A DNA stretch of 24,785 nt from a virus. Location of the stretch: positions 1-24,785 of IMG/VR virus record IMGVR_UViG_3300025872_002634. One strand, 5' to 3'. Positions 1-5,065 of the stretch are shown piece by piece; the first letter of the stretch is position 1, and each line of letters opens with the position of its first letter. The notes under the pieces are model-generated. The model searched no databases, had not been told where the DNA came from, and saw only the letters and a list, made by a program, of their open reading frames with translations. Made by a program: the position numbers and the translations under genes.

Positions 1-83
1 GCAGCCGATTGAGTCAAGCGCCGCGCAGCGTGTTGCAATCGACAATCGACAGTCCAGCGCGATAGACAAAAAACAATGGGCAT

Positions 84-115
84 AAAAAAACCCACGACCC
101 CGAAGGGTCGTGGGT
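84..115 (-). terminator. Rho-independent terminator with UUCG loop
   Basis: On the minus strand a perfect 11-bp stem (arms at 115-105 and 100-90) closes a TTCG tetraloop and runs directly into seven T residues (90-84). It lies 30 nt past the stop of the 145-612 gene and points the same way. Stem, UUCG loop and T-run make it the most canonical intrinsic terminator in the window. Positions 1-83 beyond it hold only a short tandem AATCGAC repeat (37-50) and no gene. Confidence 0.93.
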
Positions 116-144: not shown

Positions 145-612
145 TCAGCGTGCGCTCTTCGCTGCTACTCCGAGCGCGTTGCGAATCTGTCCCGCGCTCA
201 ATGCGGTCGGTTCGCCCATAAACACGCTGCAAGCGACGCGCGCGGAAAGGTTGCACCCGTTGACGGCGAAGGTTTCGCGGACGATGGACGACGGAGCATT
301 ACCCACGCTAATCGCAGTGAATGTGCCGATGATCGTGCGCATCGCCTGCGCAACGGGATCGCGGAACATGATCGGAAGGGAAGCGAGGCATTCATCCGAA
401 CCAAAGAGAATCGGATTCTTGCCGCCCCGTCCGTAGATTCCGCAGGTGCGGCAAATGTCGAACGCAGAGAGAAGGGCGGAACGATCCTGCGCGCAGTCGG
501 ATTCGGTCGCCGCTGCTGGCAGGTACTTCAGGATGCGGGACGGCTTGTTGTCACTCGCCATCTTGATCGGGTTACGGTTCGTAGACGCAGTGATGGACTC
601 AACAATGGACAT
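145..612 (-). CDS. Hypothetical protein, 155 aa, first gene after the noncoding hub
   Basis: I do not recognise this protein. I chose the ATG at 612 (MSIVES...) over a start ten codons upstream because a CGGAG Shine-Dalgarno-like motif lies about 8 nt before it, and because the upstream codons fall inside a hairpin. The protein has six or seven cysteines, including a CRTCG pair near residue 55, and a neutral Ala/Ser-rich C-terminal half with no membrane segment or signal peptide. It is preceded by about 1.1 kb of gene-free, repeat-rich DNA and followed by a strong terminator. By analogy with T7-like genomes this is where early genes begin, so it may be an early host-interaction protein, but nothing in the residues shows that. 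Confidence 0.7.
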   Translation of the reverse strand: MSIVESITASTNRNPIKMASDNKPSRILKYLPAAATESDCAQDRSALLSAFDICRTCGIYGRGGKNPILFGSDECLASLPIMFRDPVAQAMRTIIGTFTAISVGNAPSSIVRETFAVNGCNLSARVACSVFMGEPTALSAGQIRNALGVAAKSAR

Positions 613-624
613 AAGAAACACTCC

Positions 625-730
625 GCAGGGATGCCCCTGCACTAACTGTCAACGGGTAAGCCGTACCCGTACGGTTGCCGTTCACAACGAACGGCAGGAA
701 AGCCGTTGCCCCGCTTTCGCGGGGCAACGG
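625..730 (-). other. Four tandem perfect hairpins upstream of the 155-aa gene
   Basis: Four non-overlapping perfect inverted repeats follow one another: 703-714/719-730 (12 bp, loop GAAA on the minus strand), 676-683/689-696 (8 bp, 5-nt loop), 652-658/664-670 (7 bp, 5-nt loop) and 625-630/635-640 (6 bp, 4-nt loop). Read on the minus strand, the stems shorten toward the start codon at 612, and the last ends 12 nt before it. The arms share related GCCGT/AACGG words, and CAACGGGTA occurs at both 650-658 and 725-733. None is followed by a real T-run, so they are more likely leader structure, RNA-processing sites or protein-binding sites than terminators. Confidence 0.7.
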
Positions 731-840
731 GTAGTTGGTTGGTAAGACGCGCCATAACTGGTCGCGCCCGTTCGGTCGCATCGAGCGGTATTCGGTTTAT
801 CGTCCCTGTTTACTCTGCTTTCGTTCGCTAGGGCTTATCG

Positions 841-872
841 GTCGGTACGGACGCTTTCGGGTCGGTACGGAC
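841..872. repeat. 12-bp direct repeat, 20-bp period
   Basis: GTCGGTACGGAC occurs exactly at 841-852 and again at 861-872. The 20-bp spacing places both copies on roughly the same helix face. Related GGTACGG words recur at 1411-1423. A bound dimeric protein is possible, but nothing identifies one. Confidence 0.75.
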
Positions 873-1005
873 ATCGCTTGCATCGTGCCATTGTCGCCAC
901 GCACCCCCGCTCACCGACAGTGGCAAGCCGTTGGTAGATTCGCTTTGAATCCGCAACGGATACGGTTTGGTATGGATGCCCCGTTTATTCCAACGGGTAA
1001 AGGCG

Positions 1006-1043
1006 ACTCCGCGCACAATGCGTCAAGTGACGCTAGGCGGAGT
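1006..1043. other. Compound hairpin
   Basis: A 7-bp outer stem (ACTCCGC at 1006-1012, GCGGAGT at 1037-1043) encloses a 5-bp inner hairpin (GCGTC at 1020-1024, GACGC at 1029-1033). There is no T-run on either side, so it is not a terminator. It could be a cruciform or RNA structure in the noncoding region. Confidence 0.5.
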
Positions 1044-1068
1044 TATCGGACGCTTCGCCCCGTATCTA

Positions 1069-1091
1069 CCCTGCGCCTCATCAGCGCAGGG
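1069..1091. other. 8-bp GC-rich hairpin
   Basis: CCCTGCGC at 1069-1076 pairs perfectly with GCGCAGGG at 1084-1091 around a 7-nt loop. It lies 25 nt from the compound hairpin at 1006-1043 and has no T-run on either strand. Confidence 0.55.
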
Positions 1092-1216
1092 GACTTGCAG
1101 GCGGCTTGCTTGTCAAAGACGGAGCGGACGAACCGTTCCATCGGCAAGGGTAATCGAAATGCAACAGCGTGCGGGCGCACTTTCCCGAAATTTCCTCAAA
1201 TAGTTGTTATCGGTCG

Positions 1217-1240
1217 CAAGTATCTTACTTGTCCACAAGT
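1217..1240. repeat. Overlapping, mutually exclusive short palindromes
   Basis: CAAGTA (1217-1222) pairs with TACTTG (1226-1231) around TCT, while ACTTGT (1227-1232) pairs with ACAAGT (1235-1240) around CC. The central arm is shared, so only one hairpin can form at a time. The second overlaps the near-consensus DnaA box. Confidence 0.5.
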
Positions 1241-1248
1241 TATCCACA
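1229..1248. promoter_or_regulatory. Tandem DnaA-box-like sites
   Basis: TTATCCACA at 1240-1248 is an exact match to the bacterial DnaA-box consensus. TTGTCCACA at 1229-1237 differs by one base. The two sit 11 bp apart in the same orientation; read on the minus strand they form a tandem TGTGGAYAAST. The first copy also lies inside a 6-bp palindrome (ACTTGT at 1227-1232, ACAAGT at 1235-1240). DnaA binding is inferred from the consensus only. Confidence 0.55.
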
Positions 1249-1274
1249 ATGCGCCCCTCTTCTACAGGAGTCGC

Positions 1275-1344
1275 AAACCACCTAACATAATGCGAACGAG
1301 CACCTAACACGACTAGAACAAACACCCAACAAACCACCTAACAT
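1275..1344. repeat. Iteron-like array of CACCTAACA (TGTTAGGTG on the minus strand)
   Basis: CACCTAACA occurs exactly at 1279-1287, 1301-1309 and 1335-1343, with a one-mismatch copy CACCCAACA at 1323-1331. The first three units start exactly 22 bp apart (1279, 1301, 1323) and the last follows after 12 bp. The outer copies extend to an exact 14-bp repeat, AAACCACCTAACAT, at 1275-1288 and 1331-1344. The tract is strongly A/C-biased on the plus strand and lies 26 bp from the DnaA box. This resembles iterons or an operator array. No initiator gene is visible in the window. Confidence 0.7.
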
Positions 1345-1373
1345 TCAATCTGAATCGTGAAAGTGGAAATTAA

Positions 1374-1455
1374 CTAGGATCGTCCATGCGCCCTTCGGAC
1401 GGTTGGCAAGGGTACGGGTACGGTCTCGGTTCGGACGCCTCTGGCGCGATCCTAG
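1374..1455. repeat. Spaced 9-bp inverted repeat CTAGGATCG/CGATCCTAG
   Basis: CTAGGATCG at 1374-1382 is the exact reverse complement of CGATCCTAG at 1447-1455, 64 bp apart. The longer word GCGATCCTAGG at 1446-1456 recurs exactly at 4797-4807 in the gap before the large terminase gene. The core also occurs once inside a coding region (8768-8776), so chance is possible. Confidence 0.4.
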
Positions 1456-1483
1456 GCTCCCTAGCGTGAAAGGTTATCTGGAC

Positions 1484-1512
1484 GCTATATCGTCAACATC
1501 CGCTGAATTCAA
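1484..1512 (-). promoter_or_regulatory. Candidate sigma70-type promoter, leftward
   Basis: On the minus strand TTGAAT (1512-1507) is followed after exactly 17 nt by TATAGC (1489-1484). Each hexamer matches four of six consensus positions. It points into the gene-free region and toward the 155-aa gene, as expected for a host-polymerase early promoter. Match quality is only moderate. Confidence 0.35.
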
Positions 1513-1668
1513 GTGAACATTCAACTGGTTGACAATTGCAAAAACGGTCGCGGTCGCTCCGCACTCATGCGCGGCTCGATCACGACTCGTTTCCCTTGGA
1601 TCTCGTCACGATTGGGGTTCGACAGGGGGCACAGGGGGGAAACGGCAGCAATCAAAGCTCCATACCCC

Positions 1669-1682
1669 CGCTCTAAAGAGCG
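1669..1682 (-). other. Short hairpin after the cohesin-like gene
   Basis: CGCTCT (1669-1674) and AGAGCG (1677-1682) form a palindrome 15 nt beyond the stop codon at 1698. The flanks are runs of G rather than T, so it is a weak terminator candidate or an RNA 3'-end stabiliser. Confidence 0.35.
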
Positions 1683-1697
1683 ACCCCCAGTCGATTT

Positions 1698-2924
1698 TCA
1701 ACCCAATGATCCGGTAATGGTTGCGTCAGATGTGACCCCGTGGACATATGAGCCAGGGATGCTGCTTCCAACGACTCCGGAATCGGAAAGAACGGTCTGT
1801 CCGGATAGGATGGGGTTTTCTCGGTTGACGATGCTGACCGAGGTTGAATCAAAGTCGGACACCACCCTGAACATCAGATTGGCGATTACTGTCTTTTCCT
1901 TGATAATGGTATAGACCCCCGGAACAGAGAACCAATTATGCCAGCCTGTTCCATCCTTTGGAATGGCGGATTCATTGACCTTTCCAGGACCGGGACGAGA
2001 CAGTCCGTTCTCCGATCCGGCAAGACGAGTTGTCTGATCCACGCCAATGAACTCCAGGTGCGCTGGATTCCAGGAGAAATTGGTCGATACAGAGTGGATG
2101 ATCTGCGGCTTTGTCTCAGGAGTGACTGAGATCTCGACTGGAACTACGTCTCCAGGCCTGAATGCCGAGACTGGAGCCGAAAGAACGTGCGATACCTTGT
2201 ACGAAGCCGGAGCTCCGAACATAATGTCCTCGCCTTCGGACCTGATTTCTGAAAGTACATTGGTGCCGGGGATGGGGCTTCCGTCAATGCTGGATGACTG
2301 AACCAGCCTGATGAACGATCGCTGTGCACCGGGTTCAGGAAGATAATAGTCATCCTTCACCTTGAAGCCAATTCGACCGATGATCCTATATCCGCCTTGC
2401 CACATGTATCCGTTGAAATTCCATTGATATGGAGATGGCTTCTGCGGTGGAACCCTGAGCTGGGGTTCATCAAGGACCTCGGAATGGAAATGGGCTATTC
2501 CATCCCCGGTGGAAGCAATCCACGTCTTTTTGATGTTCATGACGCTGGTGTCGATGGACATGTGCGCCTGGCTTGCCGGAAGCAGCTCAAGTCGTTCATG
2601 GTCGTATTGGACGATGGCGTCGATCCCACGGAAGATGCTCCACTTGTACACGTTCATGGGAGTACCGTTCCAGATTGTCTGAACAACAGGCATCGGGATA
2701 GGCATGGCCATTATGCTGGCGTAGATGATATCGCCACGGCAAGCAATGGACCCGTTCTTGATCCCGCCGTTCCATGACTTGTTGGCCCATCCGCTTTCAA
2801 GGAACATCCTGTATTTGAACGATGGATCTATGATGTATGGTGTCAATACCCGCGCCGGAGGAACAGGAACAAGGCTTATCGTTCCATCTGGATTGACTGT
2901 CTTTACTGGAGGAATGCTGGACAT
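1698..2924 (-). CDS. Virion-associated protein with cohesin-like C-terminal domain (putative)
   Basis: This 408-aa protein has no T7 counterpart known to me. Residues about 1-245 are unrecognised, rich in aromatic residues and beta-type sequence (for example WQGGYRIIGRIGFKV near 175). Residues about 249-406 follow the cohesin-fold pattern: an opening FRPGDVVPVEISV strand (255-267), then FSWNPAHLEFIGVD (283-296), which matches the cohesin Y-x-P-x-x-L-x-x-x-G-V signature, then KTVIANLMFRV (344-354) and a closing ATITG strand. There is no signal peptide. The ATG at 2924 has only a weak AGGA 11 nt upstream, within an AT-rich 10-bp repeat. Its place after terminase in the late block suggests a structural, decoration or adhesion role, by inference. 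The cohesin-like assignment is by eye. Confidence 0.75.
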   Translation of the reverse strand: MSSIPPVKTVNPDGTISLVPVPPARVLTPYIIDPSFKYRMFLESGWANKSWNGGIKNGSIACRGDIIYASIMAMPIPMPVVQTIWNGTPMNVYKWSIFRGIDAIVQYDHERLELLPASQAHMSIDTSVMNIKKTWIASTGDGIAHFHSEVLDEPQLRVPPQKPSPYQWNFNGYMWQGGYRIIGRIGFKVKDDYYLPEPGAQRSFIRLVQSSSIDGSPIPGTNVLSEIRSEGEDIMFGAPASYKVSHVLSAPVSAFRPGDVVPVEISVTPETKPQIIHSVSTNFSWNPAHLEFIGVDQTTRLAGSENGLSRPGPGKVNESAIPKDGTGWHNWFSVPGVYTIIKEKTVIANLMFRVVSDFDSTSVSIVNRENPILSGQTVLSDSGVVGSSIPGSYVHGVTSDATITGSLG

Positions 2925-2993: not shown

Positions 2994-4712
2994 TTAGGTC
3001 CTGCTGATTCTGCGACCGCCCCATCGTGTGTTTTTCTGGGTATTCTTGGACCATTCCTTTGCCGCAGCCTGGTTGAACAATCCTCCGGACAATGGCATCA
3101 CGTATCGCGATTCCTTTGGATTGTTCCACTCCTTCAGGAACTCCTTTGCAACCTTCTCGATCTGCATCTTCTCCAGGTCATCCACCCTCTTGACGCTGTC
3201 CATGGACATCTGTTCCTTGAACCACGCCACTGCTCCAGCCAAGGCCTCGATCTGGTCGTCGTGCCTTAGGGAGTCCTTGTCTCGGGTGATGCGGGTCATC
3301 TGGTTGACCAGGACGGTGTTGGCCGCCACCTTGGGCGACACGCACAGCCTGTGCTGGGCCATTACCGGCTCCAGGGTGTCGATGATCCTCAGCTCCTTCT
3401 GACCCTTTGACCTCTTGTCCTCGATGCCTACCTGTCCAGCGATCCTCTGCAGGTGCGGGTGCAGCAACTTGGCGTACATTCCGTCTCCCCAGTTGCTTTC
3501 CACGATTACCTGGCTGACGCCGTACTGGCTGCATAGGGTGGCTAGCTTGATCAGCGTCTCGTCGCTATGGCCTCCTGGAAGGCCGTCGCACTCCGGGACA
3601 TGGATCATGCCGTTCAGGATCCTGGCGATGCAGTATCCTGTCTGGTCCTCTCCCCGTCCCGCGGGATCGATGTACATGACGGTCTGCTCGAACTCTGACC
3701 ACCGCTGGTCCATGTGCACGGGGCCGTGCCACCTGTCACCGGCAAGTCCTGCGCACTCGATGTTCCTTGGATACGTCGTGCCCCAGATCAGGTTCATCGG
3801 GGCCATGTTGCTCGCCATGTCCCACACAATCAGGTTGCTGCACCTCAGGGGATACCTGTCGGCATCGCTGAGGGTGGTGTCCAACAGCATCTGTAGGGCA
3901 AACATGGACGGGCCCATGATGGCCTCTCGCTCTACCAGCAGATCGTCTGGGTAGTAGCTGGGATAGGTGGGGTCTCCCACCTCGGCCTTTCCATCCTTAA
4001 GATTGTCCACGATCCACGGGGCGATGTTGACCATGCGCCGCTCGTCGCTTGGATCAGGATACCGTGCCGGCCATCGTCTGCAGCTGTAGTGCTGGGCAAG
4101 GCGGTTGTACACGGAATCCTCGGTCTGCGGCGTACCCAGGTAGATGATGTCTCCGCCTGGGTTGAGGATGTTTTCAAATTCCCTGAGCCTTTGGATCAGG
4201 TTGTCCCGGGCCTCGACCGTACGGCTGTTGTCCGGAATCTCCACGTCATCGTTAATGATGACGTCGACGTGGGTTCCCGTGATCATGCTCTTGATGCCGT
4301 AGGCCGCCACGCTTGGGTTCTTGGACGGAGTGGTGCGGCAGCCGACGTCAAACCGGTCGGCGCCGTCACGGTCCCACTCCCCCGGTCGCAGGTGGTGCAG
4401 CTCGTCCATGCCATCGATTAGACGCCTTACAAGCAGGATGAACTCGCGGGCACGGGTCTGCACAGCCGACACGCACAGGATCGTGGTGTCAGGGTTGCGG
4501 TACAGGCGCCATGCCGTGTAGGTGGCAGTCAGGTATGACTTGCCGAAGCCGCGCATTGCCTGGATCATCCTTCGGCTGGGTCCCGACTGCAGGTACTCGC
4601 AGACATCGTACTGAATGTCGGACGGGGCCGGCAGGCCTAGTACCTGCCATGCCCTGAAGGCGAAGTTTCTGAAGTCGGCCTTCAGCATGTCTGTGTATTC
4701 GTTATCGGACAT
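2994..4712 (-). CDS. terL: Terminase large subunit (T7 gp19-like DNA packaging motor)
   Basis: The 572-aa product is the ATPase/nuclease that pumps and cuts concatemeric DNA into proheads, close to the 586 aa of T7 gp19. Walker A is RGFGKSYL (R54-S59 core). Walker B is DVIINDDVE (150-158), with E158 the likely catalytic acid. The coupling motif is IIYLGTPQTEDS (189-200). The RNase H-like nuclease shows D349 in YIDPAGRGEDQT, E405 in VIVESNWGDG, and D485/D486 in RHDDQIEAL. It starts at ATG 4712 with a modest AGGG upstream. The gene follows the small subunit after an unusually long 137-bp gap that holds RNA structure. A T7-type enzyme implies concatemer packaging with terminal repeats (family knowledge). 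Confidence 0.97.
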   Translation of the reverse strand: MSDNEYTDMLKADFRNFAFRAWQVLGLPAPSDIQYDVCEYLQSGPSRRMIQAMRGFGKSYLTATYTAWRLYRNPDTTILCVSAVQTRAREFILLVRRLIDGMDELHHLRPGEWDRDGADRFDVGCRTTPSKNPSVAAYGIKSMITGTHVDVIINDDVEIPDNSRTVEARDNLIQRLREFENILNPGGDIIYLGTPQTEDSVYNRLAQHYSCRRWPARYPDPSDERRMVNIAPWIVDNLKDGKAEVGDPTYPSYYPDDLLVEREAIMGPSMFALQMLLDTTLSDADRYPLRCSNLIVWDMASNMAPMNLIWGTTYPRNIECAGLAGDRWHGPVHMDQRWSEFEQTVMYIDPAGRGEDQTGYCIARILNGMIHVPECDGLPGGHSDETLIKLATLCSQYGVSQVIVESNWGDGMYAKLLHPHLQRIAGQVGIEDKRSKGQKELRIIDTLEPVMAQHRLCVSPKVAANTVLVNQMTRITRDKDSLRHDDQIEALAGAVAWFKEQMSMDSVKRVDDLEKMQIEKVAKEFLKEWNNPKESRYVMPLSGGLFNQAAAKEWSKNTQKNTRWGGRRISRT

Positions 4713-4729
4713 ATGGTACCCTGGGAATT

Positions 4730-4800
4730 TCGCATTAGAGACGTCGGAGCACCGACCCCTCCGGAGATACCCCTAAACCGTCAGAACGCCTGTAATGCGA
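4730..4800 (-). ncRNA. Structured RNA candidate upstream of the large terminase gene
   Basis: An 8-bp perfect inverted repeat (TCGCATTA at 4730-4737, TAATGCGA at 4793-4800) encloses 55 nt. Inside, two mutually exclusive hairpins are possible: GTCGG/CCGAC (4743-4747/4752-4756) or CGGAG/CTCCG (4745-4749/4759-4763). An overlapping pairing (CCCCTA at 4770-4775 with TAGGGG at 4804-4809) competes with the outer stem. On the minus strand this lies in the leader just before the terL start at 4712. It could be a translational control element or a small RNA. No known family is recognised. Confidence 0.4.
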
Positions 4801-4824
4801 TCCTAGGGGCCTTAGAAAGGATTC

Positions 4825-4842
4825 GGGGGTCTTTCGACCCCC
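4825..4842 (-). terminator. Terminator-like GAAA-loop hairpin after the small terminase gene
   Basis: GGGGGTC (4825-4831) pairs perfectly with GACCCCC (4836-4842). On the minus strand the loop is GAAA, a stable GNRA tetraloop. It begins 8 nt after the stop codon at 4850. The following sequence has only CTTTCT rather than a T-run. It resembles the 12-bp GAAA hairpin at 703-730 and may be a weak terminator or a processing/stability site. Confidence 0.45.
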
Positions 4843-4849
4843 TTATCCG

Positions 4850-5065
4850 TTAGGAGACCTTCTTGAAGGGAAGGATCTCGCGCATCTTCTCTAGCTTGCC
4901 ATTGGGAAGATCCAAGGCTTGGATTCCGTTGTCCTTGAGGAAACGGAGGGCAGCCTGAGCCCAGCCAGGTGATACCCGGTCTGGATCCTTCATGGCATCG
5001 ATGATGGCATCTGCGGTGAGGTGCCACATCTCGTTGGACTTGTCGTCCTTACTGTTGTTCGTCAT
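4850..5065 (-). CDS. terS: Terminase small subunit (T7 gp18-like)
   Basis: The 71-aa product (T7 gp18 is 89 aa) is the likely DNA-recognition partner of the large terminase. The core GWAQAALRFLKDNGIQAL (residues about 34-51) is the AxxFLKDN-type motif I associate with small terminase subunits of T7-like phages. The N-terminus is polar and the C-terminus basic. I chose ATG 5065 because GAGG lies about 8 nt upstream; a TTG six codons earlier has no Shine-Dalgarno. It overlaps the preceding membrane-protein gene by 17 nt, which suggests translational coupling. Synteny (fibre, small membrane protein, small terminase, large terminase) strongly supports the call. Confidence 0.82.
   Translation of the reverse strand: MTNNSKDDKSNEMWHLTADAIIDAMKDPDRVSPGWAQAALRFLKDNGIQALDLPNGKLEKMREILPFKKVS

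Follow-up and report, generated by a model that had tools for sequence, protein, structure and literature searches.

A gene-free gap in a T7-like phage record as a probable packaging junction and early leader, with an edge signal possibly common to the Autographiviridae

The 24,785-base virus record analyzed here (the window) carries T7-type late genes, all on the minus strand, in the order portal, scaffold, major capsid, tail tubes, tail fibre, and terminase from the right end. The window is densely packed with genes apart from a gap of 1,055 to 1,085 bp (613/643-1697) between the end of the late cluster and the first early gene, which raises the question of what this gap represents. The first early open reading frame (ORF) comprises 155 to 165 codons (145-612/642). 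ATG 612, with GGAG upstream, is the better start, so the gap begins at 613, as the first-pass annotation had it. That annotation also described the gap as devoid of credible genes in an otherwise tightly packed genome, and both statements are borne out. ORFs within 643-1697 show no convincing protein match in the relatives described below, with the sole matches tracking the DNA conservation of block A (Table 1); the adjoining ORF at 145-612 finds matches with E values down to 1e-24. The designation of the next gene as the "first leftward gene" does not apply, since late and early genes both run leftward. Small unrecognized genes occupying the gap are barely credible: a 190-aa ORF is present at 735-1307 on the plus strand, but none of the gap's ORFs is matched by a conserved homologue in the corresponding position of the relatives. 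The 408-aa gene bordering the gap sits between the terminase and the predicted packaging site in the window's phage only, the other relatives being devoid of it there. Relatives of this cohesin-type protein are present in other contigs (L007 and L008).

Table 1. Features in and around the gene-free gap (window coordinates)
Feature	Position	Strand	Basis or remark
Terminase large subunit, last core late gene	2994..4712	-	PHROG 38, E 7e-106
Extra gene, 408 aa, C-terminal cohesin-type domain	1698..2924	-	Pfam Cohesin PF00963, E 1.9e-5, above cut-off
Block A, predicted packaging/terminal-repeat edge signal, AAAATCGACTGGGGGTC...TTAGAGCGGGGGTATGGAGC...CCCCCCTGTGCCCCC	about 1621..1696	-	Conservation downstream of terminase, shared architecture, iterated profile
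Predicted terminase cut	1661..1665	-	Repeat would lie on the lower-coordinate side
Block B, second conserved stretch, probably within terminal repeat	1344..1523		Alignment of relatives
Element E copy 1, CCTAGGATCG...GGCGTCCGA	1430..1456	-	
Element E copy 2, inverted	1373..1399	+	83 bp from copy 1
Spaced array, CACCTAACA three times plus degenerate CACCCAACA	1279..1343	+	
Two DnaA-box-like sequences, TTGTCCACA / TTATCCACA	1229..1248	+	Not conserved
boxA-like TCTTTGACAA, third conserved block	1110..1119	-	Same place in L003, L017, and L018
Perfect 12-bp hairpin in leader	703..730		
Hairpin directly upstream of GGAG and ATG 612	624..641	-	Same arrangement in L003, L016, L017, and L018
First early gene, 155 aa from ATG 612	145..612	-	Homologues in L003, L017, and L018, E 1e-20 to 1e-24
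Terminator after first early gene	90..115	-	

Relatives were found with terminases 75 to 84% identical to that of the window, and L009 is a second contig of the same phage (99.9% identical) that reaches 563 bp past the window's left end. L003, L017, L018, and L019, the last two near-identical to each other, share this gap, and in each of them a homologue of the 155-aa protein comes next; in L005 and L016, the gap is shorter and the first gene is different. Alignment of the relatives reveals three conserved blocks (window 1621-1703, 1344-1523, and 1104-1133) amid diverged DNA. All four of the longest relatives show the T7-type gene order and carry a T7-type RNA polymerase. This polymerase is encoded in G001, G005, G006, and G008 and is absent from the window, itself a 24.8-kb fragment. 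As at a T7-type junction, the gap lies between the terminase or last late gene and the first early gene, with the genes running in one direction. Synteny with T7 had placed the gap at the joined genome ends, and this placement is supported by the T7-type order and by the same gap in relatives with a T7-type RNA polymerase.

The gap very probably represents the concatemer junction of a T7-like phage of the Autographiviridae type, with a single, collapsed copy of the direct terminal repeat and an untranslated early leader after it. This reading, derived from sequence comparison, is built on the gap itself, its blockwise conservation, the synteny, and an edge architecture common to phages with annotated or measured ends. 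We infer the following arrangement. In the direction of the genes, the terminase and one extra gene end, followed by block A, where the packaging terminase would recognize and cut the concatemer. The cut would set both where the right-hand terminal repeat has its inner edge and where the mature genome has its left end. From there, the repeat would extend a few hundred base pairs across block B and probably reach the repeat array or its vicinity. Downstream of the repeat, transcription by the host RNA polymerase would yield a hairpin-rich leader with the boxA-like sequence and proceed into the first early gene. Short-read assemblies put such terminal repeats mid-contig (PMC10438801).

Block A lies just downstream of the terminase in every relative reaching it (L003, L005, L015 to L019, L022, and L024) including a 57% relative. 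It contains AAATCGACTGGGGGTC, followed by TTAGA/TTCAA, a G-run, YATGRAGC, and CCCCCC 24 to 25 nt further. A degenerate 21-base pattern of block A yields six matches in 2.9 million viral contigs, each located downstream of a related terminase. An exact copy of the 16-mer AAATCGACTGGGGGTC is also present in two short contigs (L033 and L034) within unrelated coding sequence, which was taken as chance. In general terms, the architecture is an A-rich TYxGA element, 7 to 9 nt, and then a C5-6 run 24 to 26 nt on, and it matches the annotated or measured inner terminal-repeat edges of T7, T3, gh-1, Pasto, and S2B. The proposal that the gap holds joined genome ends with a collapsed terminal repeat is strongly supported by this edge signal, which is common to the five phages, together with the T7 synteny and the gap of the relatives. 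With this architecture and the profile results described below, block A is most likely the terminase cut or packaging site.

Comparison with individual phages refines this picture. T7 carries a 160-bp direct terminal repeat at its concatemer junction, in the same place after the terminase and before the first early gene, and its layout of AAAATCTGA, 7 nt, cut, 25 nt, and CCCCC follows the same order of A-rich element, cut, and C-run as block A. In contrast to T7, the window's family has GGGGTC upstream and, according to the S2B alignment, 9 nt between element and cut. Closest in letters to block A is the edge of Caulobacter phage S2B, GGGGTCAGAAATCCGAAGCGGCA|TGAACG...CCCCCGTG, which borders a terminal repeat annotated as 259 bp long; block B and element E, present in the window, are not seen in S2B. 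Rhizobium phage Pasto has a 271-bp terminal repeat, the end of which was determined with PhageTerm, and the layout AAAATCCGA, 7 nt, cut, 26 nt, and CCCCCCGTGCCCC; its upstream part is AAATTTGCCCC instead of ATCGACTGGGGGTC. The 7-nt rule of T7, Pasto, and S2B would place the cut at 1664|1665, and the S2B alignment (GGCA|TGAACG) at 1662|1663; the alignment gives a spacing of 9 nt and the rule one of 7 nt, which leaves the predicted position open to an error of about 2 nt.

Headful packaging from a pac site, in which block A would mark the first cut only and the genomes would be circularly permuted without a fixed repeat, is improbable. Contigs such as L016 run unbroken through the junction, as circularly permuted genomes would, but collapsed terminal repeats look the same (PMC10438801), and the edges matched by block A belong to phages whose direct terminal repeats are fixed.

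A blastn search of the gap or block A against 50,697 phage records returned nothing useful, so known ends were examined singly. At the ends of T7, T3, gh-1, and Pasto, AAAATCTGA or AAAATCCGA is followed by 7 nt (6 in gh-1), the cut, and C5-8 starting at base 25 to 28 of the repeat. The genome ends of T3 were independently measured by sequencing (PMC3896407). A profile built from the window's family alone found the S2B edge weakly (E 8) and gave way to one trained on phages whose ends are annotated. The new profile comprises nine edges outside the window's family; for the test on T7, the T7 and T3 edges were omitted. The training edges of BB8, Lo5R7ANS, and ProddE were shifted by 6 to 8 nt from the deposited position, and the edge of the phage jiawei was placed by motif; the shifts and this placement were made before the test on other phages. 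Trained without T7 and T3, the profile ranks the T7 edge first among the sites of the 39,937-bp genome (E 0.002, with the next site at 10). In eight of eight untrained autographiviruses, the top site of the nine-edge profile lies downstream of the terminase in gene sense, falling into the annotated gap in seven of them and into the open right-hand region in RHEph01; the product of the region fractions for the eight phages is 3e-9. Their top-site scores range from 8.9 to 32.7 bits, compared to a median of 2.2 and a maximum of 10.2 in 55 shuffled records, so PT2 (8.9) and CRP118 (10.0) fall inside the shuffled range on score alone. The profile fits the edges of neither DCM nor phiKMV nor SP6, although a C-run stands at the expected distance in phiKMV.

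In the window itself, block A has lost the A-rich part. The profile that excludes the window's family picks only the C-run there and does not recover block A well. Within the clade, the same profile gives block A as the top match in L024 and L015 and as the second in L016, and after iteration with L024 and L016 added, block A becomes the best site in the window (1676-1625, E 0.034). The link from the window's copy to the known edges passes through L024, L016, and L015. Confidence in the junction is high but not higher because the window's own block A was found only after L024 and L016 had been added.

Block B, the second conserved stretch, contains 12 to 19 invariant positions per 30-nt window, except for 11 at 1404-1433, compared to 1 to 7 in most of the rest. 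It harbors an inverted pair of element E, a 27-bp site of the pattern CCTAGGATCG...GGCrTTCyGA, with the two copies exactly 83 bp apart in the window, L003, L017, L018, and L019. A related copy is found upstream of the terminase, within about 150 bp of strongly conserved noncoding DNA with hairpins (window about 4713-4880, minus strand) that is present in all relatives except L022. Toward the early side, block B adjoins the spaced repeat array reported in the first-pass annotation, which is real: CACCTAACA occurs three times in the whole window, each time within 1279-1343, and 0 of 100 shuffles reach three copies. The direct repeats noted there are likewise real but modest (833-872, 85%; 1274/1330, 15 nt). 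T7 has a short repeat array comparable in place, its CCTAAAG array at the genome ends. The window differs from T7 in the other orientation of CACCTAACA, the extra element E pair, and the absence of recognized early promoters. ATCTGTT, present at the far repeat edge of T7 and Pasto, recurs in L003 and L017 but not in the window or other phages and was rejected as a general far-edge signal.

The array also bears on a reading of the gap as a replication origin in which DnaA-like boxes and repeats load host initiation proteins. Two adjacent DnaA-like boxes, the perfect TTATCCACA and TTGTCCACA beside it, are indeed present next to the three-copy array, as noted earlier, but a single perfect box is at chance level, occurring in 28% of shuffles, and the pair is not conserved in L003 or L017 to L019. 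In 500-base windows, GC skew shows no turn centered on the gap and no A+T-rich stretch is seen, leaving neither a conserved box cluster nor a skew turn or unwinding region as expected of a DnaA-dependent origin. With the array having its counterpart at the genome ends of T7, the proposed origin has little probability.

The part of the gap toward the first early gene resembles the early leaders of known phages. The third conserved block contains TCTTTGACAA, which resembles the rRNA boxA antitermination element. A boxA-like sequence also precedes the first early gene of T7, S2B (CTTTGACA), Lo5R7ANS, and others. Long gene-free leaders are present in T7 (924 bp before gene 0.3), Pasto (1,050 bp before the first gene), and DCM (1,013 bp). 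The arrangement of hairpin, GGAG, and ATG precedes the first gene in L003, L016, L017, and L018. A scan of the window's gap with the sigma-70 consensus recognizes no promoter, contrary to the candidate promoter proposed earlier; in relatives, promoter-like sites are visible by eye (TTGACT-17-GATACT in L016 and TTGACA-16-TATCCT in L018). An early-expression block is supported in part, by the conserved boxA-like sequence, the hairpin with ribosome site, and the good promoter-like sites of the relatives, but a promoter of its own is not recognized in the window. The GACTCAATCGGCTGC repeat is found in the window at 1-17 (minus strand) and in the early regions of L005, L016, and L018, with one to five copies per locus; this restriction to early regions led to its rejection as a T7-style late promoter.

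"At least six hairpins" had been counted in the gap. One strong perfect hairpin (703-730) stands, whereas the others are ordinary: 200-nt windows reveal unusual structure at about 586-800 only (z -4.2/-5.3), and the rest folds like coding DNA. The idea that the gap is mainly a large structured noncoding RNA or a long structured early leader, with block A as part of the RNA, could draw on the low folding energies over long stretches and on the conservation of the boxA-like sequence and the module of hairpin and ribosome site. It is nevertheless very improbable, with folding at coding background outside the region near 586-800 and no Rfam family matched in a search of the relatives and L009, which carries the window's sequence; a large ornate RNA was rejected on these grounds. 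Moreover, both the sequence and the spacing of element E are retained, and a single arm change in L003 disrupts the pairing instead of preserving it. Separately, gene-poor structured stretches of 0.8 to 1 kb follow a small early gene in L005 (8671-9690) and L016 (7800-8640). These two loci share blocks such as GGTCAGAGTCGGC[hairpin]GGAAAGCGACT, have no Rfam match, and could represent a large RNA.

The packaging junction with early leader of a T7-like phage is an ordinary but informative feature of a known kind. The possibly new part is the edge signal common across the Autographiviridae, which may be undescribed: the literature searched holds no description of a shared edge signal, with subscription papers on T3 and T7 packaging sites outside its scope. 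Tentatively, and with slightly less than an even chance of being right, we propose one ancient family-wide signal (RAAATYYGA, 7 nt, cut, about 25 nt, and C5-6 followed by GTG/GTA/ATA) that would allow the ends of circularized or fragmentary genomes to be placed by sequence alone. In the window's clade, it would be accompanied inside the repeat by the inverted element E pair, whose spacing corresponds to about eight helical turns and which would probably serve as a binding site for a packaging or replication protein. Short-read and metagenome assemblies of T7-like phages usually lose or misplace the terminal repeats. Should the signal hold, sequence could be used to locate genome ends in thousands of uncultured autographiviruses, and a direct test of the sequence rule behind T7-type terminase cutting would become possible. 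Misannotated ends could also be corrected, as the deposited edges of BB8 (MK984681), Lo5R7ANS (NC_025431), and ProddE (MZ666938) fit the signal only if shifted and look 6 to 8 nt off. "Mycobacterium phage jiawei" (L061, OR464703) is an autographivirus with a packaging signal and boxA-like sequence closest to those of Caulobacter phage S2B; its stated host is surprising.
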